Below, piece after piece: positions 11,242-53,563 of a stretch of 64,000 bases of DNA (positions are counted from its first letter, which is position 1; every line of letters starts with the position of its first letter). The DNA is taken from NCBI GenBank assembly GCA_016209225.1, contig JACQWO010000069.1:1-64000 (forward strand), read 5' to 3'. The notes below the pieces were generated by a model. It was not told the DNA's origin. It saw only the letters and a list, made by a program, of their open reading frames with translations, and did not search any database. Both the position numbers and the translations under genes were made by a program. This DNA comes from Desulfobacterales bacterium. GTDB taxonomy: Bacteria; Desulfobacterota; UBA8473.

Positions 11242-11327
11242 GTTACCACTAAGGTTGTTTAGGCTGAAGGCTGTTAGGCTACAGTCTACAGTCTAACTGC
11301 CTACAGCCTATCCACCTGAGTAGTTAT
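11242..11327. repeat. Inverted-repeat element, degenerate copy of the GTAACTACTCAGG family
   Basis: The right end acctgagtagttat (11314-11327) matches the terminal repeat seen at 37729, 41518 and elsewhere. The left end gttaccactaagg (11242) is a poor copy. The interior is built of short words, gttaggctacagtctacagtctaac, enclosed by taggctg/cagccta. No flanking direct repeat is visible here. It occupies the divergent spacer between the sensor kinase and glgB. Confidence 0.5.
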
Positions 11328-37588: not shown

Positions 37589-37619
37589 TTTTCTCCCTTC
37601 CCTTCATCATTAAAAATTC

Positions 37620-37742
37620 GTAACTACTCAGGCACAAAGTGGCAAAGGCACATAGGCACAAAGCGGAGCGAGGTCGTTTCGTTGTTTTTTCCTACTTTGT
37701 GCCTTTGGTGCTCTGTGCCTCTGCGCCTACCTGAGTAGTCAC
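37620..37742. mobile_element. MITE-like element with TIRs and 8-bp direct repeats
   Basis: The left end gtaactactcagg (37620-37632) and right end cctgagtagtcac (37730-37742) are inverted repeats with one mismatch. The element is flanked exactly by aaaaattc at 37612-37619 and 37743-37750, a perfect 8-bp direct repeat as left by transposition. The 97-base interior is an imperfect hairpin of word repeats (ggcacaaag, ggcacatag) and has no frame. Non-autonomous; no transposase is visible in the window. Confidence 0.8.
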
Positions 37743-37771
37743 AAAAATTCAAGCTTGTCTAACCGAGCACT

Positions 37772-41004: not shown

Positions 41005-41116
41005 GTAACTATTCAAGCGAGACGCCTGTCCTACTGTGTTGTATAACCACCTACGACGCAGGACAGCCGTCTCGAATGTCTAAAATACAGGGCTTTAGAT
41101 AAAGCTGAATAGTTAC
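41005..41116. mobile_element. MITE-like element, second copy with direct repeats
   Basis: The left end gtaactattcaag (41005) and right end ctgaatagttac (41105-41116) are inverted repeats of the same family as at 37620. Flanks are gttttaat (40997-41004) and gttttaag (41117-41124), an 8-bp direct repeat with one mismatch. The interior pairs gcgagacg...cgtctcg and has no gene. It lies upstream of pckG on its 5' side. Confidence 0.75.
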
Positions 41117-41429: not shown

Positions 41430-41531
41430 GTAACTATTCAGGTTCAAAGTTCCGGGGTTCAAGGTTAGAGAGCGATGAAGATCGCAAGCCAACCAACCAT
41501 GAACCGTGAACCTGACGACCTGAGTAGTTAC
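41430..41531. repeat. GTAACTACTCAGG-family element ahead of tadA
   Basis: Left end gtaactattcaggttc (41430) and right end cctgagtagttac (41519-41531) are inverted repeats. The interior consists of ttcaaagttccggggttcaa and gaaccgtgaacc words that partly pair. Flanking 8-mers (aagaataa / cattaatt) do not match, so a target duplication is not preserved here. It ends 25 bases before the tadA ATG and could affect its expression. Confidence 0.65.
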
Positions 41532-42137: not shown

Positions 42138-42231
42138 GGAGAGATGGCCGAGTCTGGTCGAAGGCGATTGATTCGAAATCAATTGTCCTGAGAAATCGGG
42201 ACCGGGGGTTCAAATCCCTCTCTCTCCGCCA
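42138..42231 (+). tRNA. tRNA-Ser (anticodon CGA)
   Basis: Acceptor strands ggagaga / tctctcc, discriminator g, encoded CCA at the end. The anticodon stem attga / tcaat encloses the loop ttcgaaa, so the anticodon is CGA (42174-42176). A long variable arm (gtcctgag...gggacc) and ggttcaaatcc T-arm confirm a class II tRNA-Ser. The CGA anticodon reads UCG. Confidence 0.95.
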
Positions 42232-42327: not shown

Positions 42328-42420
42328 GGAGAGATGTCCGAGCGGCTGAAGGAGCACGACTGGAAATCGTGTGTACGCCCAAAAGGTGTACCGAGGGTTC
42401 AAATCCCTCTCTCTCCGCCA
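42328..42420 (+). tRNA. tRNA-Ser (anticodon GGA)
   Basis: Acceptor strands ggagaga / tctctcc with discriminator g and encoded CCA. Anticodon stem cacga / tcgtg with loop ctggaaa; anticodon GGA at 42362-42364. Long variable arm (gtgtacgcccaaaaggtgtac). Reads UCC/UCU. Its 3' half from the T-arm on is identical to the preceding tRNA-Ser. Confidence 0.95.
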
Positions 42421-42550: not shown

Positions 42551-42653
42551 TGATAGCTGGATCCTACGCAACTAAGGGTTACAAACCCCGTCAGGTCCGG
42601 AAGGAAGCAGCGGTAGTAATATCTTAGTGTGCCGTAGGGTAATCCAGCTATCA
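42551..42653 (+). ncRNA. ffs: Small signal recognition particle RNA (4.5S)
   Basis: Tgatagctggat (42551-42562) pairs with atccagctatca (42642-42653). The conserved apical segment gtcaggtccggaaggaagca (GGAA tetraloop region that binds Ffh) lies at 42590-42609. Length about 100. It lies just upstream of dnaX, as in many bacteria. Confidence 0.95.
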
Positions 42654-53519: not shown

Positions 53520-53563
53520 GTAACTACTCAGGTTCAAAGGCACAGAGCACCAAAGGCATAAAG
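53520..53563. repeat. Half element of the GTAACTACTCAGG family
   Basis: Gtaactactcaggttcaaag and the next cacagagcaccaaaggc match one end of the family and the right arm of the element at 37620 (reversed). No matching opposite end follows, so it is a half copy. Sits upstream of the GT2 gene. Confidence 0.6.

Follow-up and report, generated by a model that had tools for sequence, protein, structure and literature searches.

To our knowledge, a MITE family generally has a single interior, and an element that starts with GTAA and lies between 8-bp duplications is presumably a lead to IS66. The IVP/S23 gene has been known for decades from rRNA intervening sequences (IVSs), which in 23S rRNA sit at helices 25 and 45, and we know of no function for it. 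Known IVSs take the place of the tetraloop in an rRNA helix that already exists (PMC4990558). Among IS66 transposons, ends that start with GTAA are given in PMC12888890, and 8-bp duplications are tabulated for the members ISPpa5a and ISPpa7 (PMC3281130). The inverted repeats of IS66 elsewhere are longer than those described below, at 22 to 35 bp in Paracoccus (PMC3281130) and 24 bp in ISPsko1 (PMC12888890). Here, we describe short, high-copy elements of a Desulfobacterales genome that are, in our judgment, very likely miniature elements of an IS66 subgroup with hairpin interiors, some of them carrying IVP, that have been replaced, inverted or re-looped in place.

The element and its relatives in the window

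The window is the whole 64-kb stretch of DNA that was analysed, and it represents contig 64 of a host genome of 3.10 Mb in 95 contigs. At 37620-37742, a sequence-only reading had seen a 13-bp inverted repeat with one mismatch that was exactly bounded by an 8-bp duplication. That structure was confirmed, with ends GTAACTACTCAGG and GTGACTACTCAGG and a perfect AAAAATTC on both sides. The parts of the element, followed by the other members in the window, are as follows.

37612..37619, no strand: left target duplication, 8 bp, AAAAATTC; one copy at the empty G001 ortholog
37620..37632, + strand: left terminal inverted repeat, GTAACTACTCAGG; its 12-bp core is common to the IS66-family elements L322, L323 and L329
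37631..37663, + strand: left arm, tandem words GGCACAAAG / GGCAAAGG / GGCACATAG
37664..37694, no strand: hairpin loop; another loop at the orthologous site of G003
37695..37731, + strand: right arm, complement of the left-arm words
37730..37742, - strand: right terminal inverted repeat, GTGACTACTCAGG; one mismatch to the left end
37743..37750, no strand: right target duplication, 8 bp, AAAAATTC
11242..11327, no strand: second member, 86 bp, GGCTGAAGG-word family, full-length; left end degenerate, GTTACCACTAAGG
41005..41116, no strand: third member, 112 bp; the common words are missing from its hairpin interior; duplication GTTTTAAT/GTTTTAAG, one mismatch
41430..41531, no strand: fourth member, GGTTCAAGG-word family, full-length; contains ATGAAGAT
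53520..53563, + strand: fifth member, decayed, left end and left arm only

Allowing up to two mismatches, the 13-mer end matched the 64-kb window eight times against 0.93 expected, a number reached in none of 100 shuffles. These eight matches resolve into five members (11242-11327, 37620-37742, 41005-41116, 41430-41531 and the left end at 53520), and the earlier count of at least five members or fragments in 64 kb was right. The same ends that had been placed at 11314, 41005, 41430 and 53520 are real, those at 11314 and 41430 belonging to full-length members, that at 41005 to the 112-bp member, and the last being a left end only. No target duplication was seen at member 11242-11327. The ATGAAGAT within member 41430-41531 corresponds to the first codons of an IVP reading frame as found in L065. 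Folded as RNA, the element at 37620-37742 gave -53.7 kcal/mol with a z score of -5.3, and the predicted fold is compatible with excision from a transcript by RNase III.

The copies in the window lie outside rRNA genes. Moreover, Rfam families across the window comprised only the SRP RNA and two tRNAs, and none fell within the elements. We note that the tRNA genes (42138-42228 and 42328-42417) and then the bacterial small SRP RNA (42555-42652) form a series immediately upstream of a dnaX-like reading frame.

Family size, target duplications and empty sites

The family is large. Exact GTAACTAYTCAGG ends number 149 in the host genome against 0 for the reversed control, and matches to the 13-bp end with up to two mismatches number 384 against 83 for that control. 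Among the congeners, exact GTAACTAYTCAGG occurs 48 times in G001, 55 times in G002, 125 times in G003 and 6 times in G004, and it occurs 83 times in G006, which belongs to the same family as the host. The conserved end is 12 bp, GTAACTAYTCAG, and the 13th base is G or C depending on the subfamily. The elements are multicopy and contain no IS66 gene, most of them are shorter than 200 bp, and 78 of 80 host-genome copies are not wholly within an open reading frame of 150 codons or more. Two subfamily start patterns retrieved no elements from IMG/VR viral contigs, and the searchable literature (open papers only) yielded no earlier description of the element or of IVP genes in MITEs.

Elements were gathered from the sequence stretches around ends in five congeneric genomes, the compared congeners all being draft assemblies, and the resulting set of 204 candidates leaves unsampled copies and counts some orthologous copies of one insertion more than once. 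An exact 8-bp duplication bounds 56 of the 204 against 0.49 expected when flanks were re-paired at random, and 75 of the 204 have one with at most one mismatch (1.2 expected). Only 5 and 2 duplications have lengths of 7 and 9, respectively, and thus the true length is 8 bp. At positions 2 to 7 the 46 distinct duplications are rich in A/T, and they have no usable sequence consensus. Copies are therefore many and flank matches far above chance, both of which support the proposal of a transposed, non-autonomous family defined by its ends; the outcome named beforehand as refuting it, few copies or flanks that match no better than chance, did not occur. The further suggestion that the ends are the conserved part also held, the conserved stretch being 12 bp rather than 13.

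Site 37620 is precisely empty in the sister species G001, where a single AAAAATTC is left. Counting this one, the element is absent at eight distinct sites in a congener, and at most of these a single 8-bp copy remains. As sites filled in one species are empty in another, movement continued since the species of the genus parted. Flank identity between species at orthologous sites is 85-97%.

The probable transposase partner

The partner was sought in 297 genomes of the phylum. L322 is an IS66-family transposon of 1757 bp with GTAACTATTCAGC ends, a perfect duplication AAAACGCC and a 471-aa transposase, and L323 is another, of 1758 bp, with a perfect 8-bp duplication AAACAAGT. Both have the 12-bp GTAACTATTCAG at each end. 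The ends of the IS66 loci L329 and L326 are GTAACTATTCAGC and GTAACTACTCAGG, respectively, and several IS66 loci of the phylum are bounded on both sides by the 12-bp GTAACTAYTCAG-type end. NCBIfam and Pfam models identify the tested proteins as IS66 transposases, with E values of about 1e-87 for NF033517 (NCBIfam) and 1e-45 for PF03050 (Pfam). Within these transposons, the two ends match each other only over about 12 to 14 bp, the same stretch that the short elements share. Moreover, the genome G128 contains an IS66 with GTAACTACTCAGG ends, 35 ends of this kind and short elements flanked by perfect duplications, and the host's own family contains a decayed IS66 with the end GTAACTACCCAGG (L120).

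The host genome has one IS66 gene (L118), bounded by GTAACTTCTCACG ends. It was rejected as the direct partner, as its GTAACTTCTCAC ends have two differences over 12 and it has no matching duplication. Beside this gene, on host contig 7, lie IS200/IS605-like and IS3-like transposases, recognised by inspection only (L118:671-1144 and L118:3235-4369). No IS66 was found in the congeners G001 to G004, and same-end pairs up to 3 kb apart in sampled loci of the host genome enclosed no long element with a transposase. The full-length, transposase-bearing element with the same ends that the sequence-only reading had envisaged thus exists in the phylum (L322 and L323), and the draft assemblies of the host genus yielded no intact IS66 that has these ends.

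Likely autonomous IS66 relatives share the 12-bp ends and likewise stand between perfect 8-bp duplications, and we conclude that the short elements are very probably IS66-mobilised MITEs. Inside the ends there is no homology to these relatives, as only 12-13 bp are common with L322, L323 and L326. Because so little is shared and the interiors are word hairpins or IVP, the elements are better described as MITEs mobilised through IS66 ends than as deleted IS66 copies. Very probably, the partner belongs to the L322/L323-type subgroup of IS66 and is now either lost from the host genus or not assembled there, since IS66s of the phylum share both the ends and the 8-bp duplications, since the two kinds of element co-occur in G128 and since L120 is decayed. 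An IS66-type DDE transposase would act in trans and recognise only the 12-13-bp end, and thus any DNA between two such ends would be movable.

Word hairpins and the IVP gene

The interior is an imperfect hairpin of family-specific tandem words with two complementary arms. Among the 204 elements, the word families are GGCACAAAG (116 elements), GGTTCAAGG (38), GGCTGAAGG (37), CACAGATGAACAC (7), GGAGTCAG (2) and others. At least five interior families share the ends and are mutually unrelated, in keeping with the early remark that interiors differ and are made of tandem words.

A second small palindromic element (TTCACCCTGTT...AACAGGG) is inserted into an arm of GTAACTACTCAG elements in L010 and at L194:851-1038, and the GTAACTACTCAG element that receives it in L010 has its ortholog in G003 (L183:359-538). 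Numerous contigs of G006 end within a nested composite (L431-L442) in which outer GTAACTAYTCAGC ends with CACAGAT-type words surround inner GTAACTACTCAGG ends with CACAAAG-type words. Several of these also include the beginning of an IVP gene, and the composite looks recently amplified. Elements of CGCAAAG words occur in G128 (L443:1059-1306, L445:1089-1295 and L449:1077-1323), two of them with perfect 8-bp duplications, and they contain a reading-frame remnant that looks unlike IVP.

Long copies carry an IVP gene (PF05635, TIGR02436), which encodes S23, the four-helix-bundle protein known from intervening sequences of 23S rRNA. There are 11 IVP matches in the host genome and 0 in 14 control genomes. 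The 472-bp element L024/L064 has an intact IVP within GGCTGAAGG arms, L065 and L067 have a partial IVP, and in G006 IVP lies within CACAAAG arms. The same ends and an intact IVP also define a 443-bp element (L332) in a MAG labelled Ca. Brocadiaceae, and a G128 copy (L446) joins the IVP start to a distal stretch that is also present in L332. Six elements of two word families gave an IVP HMM match with an E value below 0.01. Some short copies are internal deletion derivatives of IVP-bearing copies, and most CACAAAG elements show no recognisable IVP remnant. IVP lies between complementary arms in L064, L065, L067 and L332, and only a minority of copies are built in this way.

Purifying selection acts on the IVP frame, as dN/dS between L064 and relatives in MAGs labelled Nitrospira lenta and Geobacter is about 0.11 and 0.07, respectively. 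Two loci, L330 and L331, in MAGs so labelled encode IVP proteins 87% and 79% identical to the host element-borne copy, and neither shows GTAACTACTCAG ends. Judged by their sequences, these two genes suggest transfer between distant lineages.

How general the word hairpin is can be read from 94 IVP loci drawn from the phylum and from across bacteria. Flanks of the same gene pair at a median alignment score of 22 versus 11 between loci, and 44 of the 94 loci exceed the control's 99th percentile, with words that differ from locus to locus. IS66-type ends are absent from most of the 94. The word hairpin therefore belongs to IVP elements in general, and either the IS66 ends were added to an IVP hairpin or the order was the reverse. 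Another kind of IVP element, with IVP in GGATTCAAGG-word hairpins and a common GGTTCATCTCCCAAAGAGTTGG-like outer arm, occurs without IS66-type ends at L061, L063 and L397, and a MAG labelled Desulfosarcina also has the kind with this outer arm.

Interior change at fixed sites

Three sites keep their duplication and differ in interior between species. At site A (L084:1420), the duplication AGATAAAC stands on both sides in four species; the host and G002 have a GGTTCAAGG interior there, and G003 and G004 a GGCACAAAG one. At site B (L087:1501), the duplication is TACGATTT, one copy having one mismatch in G002, and the host has a GGCTGAAGG interior and G002 a GGCACAAAG interior that includes an inner hairpin. 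Site C (L090:1424) shows the same imperfect pair, GATTTGTA on the left and CATTTGTA on the right, in the host and G001, with a GGTTCAAGG interior in the former and GGCTGAAGG in the latter. The shared one-base flaw points to one old insertion at site C.

Other sites vary in the same manner. The orthologs of window element 41430 in G001, G002 and G004 have other interiors, and the word family differs among the host, G001 and G004. Otherwise like interiors are inverted in place at L002, L005 and L099:4678, the loop or inner hairpin is changed within kept arms at window 37620, L108 and L255, and at L253/L275 G003 and G002 have different inner words. As compared across orthologs, these sites show an interior that, after insertion, was replaced by that of another family, inverted or re-looped while the insertion point was kept.

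Differing orthologous interiors might instead mark independent insertions at the same site, or a second insertion adjacent to the first, into the same 8 bp, and then loss of the first. Junctions at L065:821, L110:8461 and window 41430 are indeed non-identical, as expected for separate insertions into the same A/T-rich gap, but with 46 distinct duplications and no consensus beyond A/T richness, the same base should rarely be hit twice. Moreover, sites A and B retain their duplication, both species share the one-base mismatch between the two copies at site C, and side-by-side elements sharing an 8-bp spacer were not found among the elements. Because there is no target consensus, independent re-insertion is unlikely, and least likely at site C. 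Short-read assembly across a high-copy repeat might also create swaps and flips: the congeners are drafts, many G006 contigs end within such elements, and the 40-bp arms are near-identical between copies, such that loop changes or flips within shared arms (L108, L255 and L002) could arise from a small assembly k-mer. Whole-interior swaps at sites A, B and C, however, have only 12-13 bp in common, presumably too short for usual k-mers; elements of 86-157 bp are ones that a single read could often span; and independent MAGs agree at other sites. Assembly error is thus a real concern for loop changes and flips in the 40-bp shared arms and much less so for the swaps at A, B and C, and as an account of interior change as a whole we hold it to be quite unlikely.

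Two further alternatives concern the machinery. The ends might derive from a transposase other than IS66 that also makes 8-bp duplications, the likeness to IS66 being due to chance, as the genus is without a partner IS66 and the shared end is only 12-13 bp. We regard this as improbable, as it would leave to coincidence the phylum IS66 loci that have the 12-bp GTAACTAYTCAG-type end at both termini, the perfect 8-bp duplications of L322 and L323, and the GTAACTACTCAGG that the IS66 and the short elements of G128 share. Exchange might also be RNA templated, with hairpin transcripts reverse transcribed and copied back with the help of IVP, which is related to Avd, a protein of diversity-generating retroelements. 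The element folds strongly as RNA and the element IVP proteins score weakly on the Avd model (E values of 3e-6 to 7e-6), but these scores are far below the cut-off, and G001, G002 and G004, of which G004 is rated 100% complete, yielded no reverse transcriptase (one each was found in G000 and G003, and two in G006). A diversity-generating retroelement of the Avd type was rejected on the same two counts, the low Avd scores and the absence of reverse transcriptase from three of six genomes, and RNA-templated exchange in any form seems hardly credible.

We favor microhomology or template-switch conversion as the source of interior exchange. Hairpins would stall replication and open the way to copying, and replacement would be an ectopic event in which another copy serves as template over short homology (by template switching or gap repair), with the shared 12-13-bp ends serving as the microhomology that anchors the exchange. 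Perhaps, and we offer this as a doubtful speculation, IVP word hairpins are a mobile kind of their own that invades or replaces the tips of existing hairpins, with IS66-type MITEs as landing pads, by analogy with the rRNA intervening sequences that replace a helix tetraloop (PMC4990558). The nested word hairpins and the turnover of interiors and loops would then be repeated rounds of tip invasion, and IVP would be the element's own mobility or protection factor. If tip invasion were true, the long-standing question of how IVSs move would become testable outside the ribosome.

Comparison with known systems

The elements give the IVP/S23 gene a second home, a transposable hairpin that is countable, datable by target duplications and comparable at empty and filled sites. 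In this MITE family, moreover, position evolves separately from content, and therefore copy number and insertion history are unreadable from interior sequence.

IS66 of the single-transposase type (PF03050 / NF033517) is alike in its GTAA-starting inverted ends, its 8-bp duplications and, in L322, L323 and L329, the 12-bp GTAACTAYTCAG. The elements here, however, are without a transposase, conserve 12-13 bp instead of 20 or more, and have a foreign interior. Bacterial MITEs (BrickBuilt of Porphyromonas gingivalis, PMC4596501; review, PMC10969869) are likewise short and intergenic, with inverted ends, target duplications and a stable hairpin transcript, and BrickBuilt has tandem repeats as well (PMC4596501). 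Unlike in usual MITEs, at least five unrelated interiors here sit on the same ends, and the interior changes in place. The 23S rRNA IVS with an S23/IVP frame, such as that of Coxiella, also has IVP between complementary arms in one long stem-loop, and its replacement of a tetraloop resembles the loop replacement in our elements (PMC4990558), but the elements here lie outside rRNA, are bounded by transposon ends and target duplications, and are dispersed in intergenic DNA. Finally, REP/BIME palindromic repeats are similarly small, intergenic, palindromic and high in copy number, whereas the elements here have clean 8-bp duplications, precise empty sites and IS66-identical ends. What is new here is the presence of unrelated, exchangeable interiors, the IVP gene among them, on IS66-type MITE ends.
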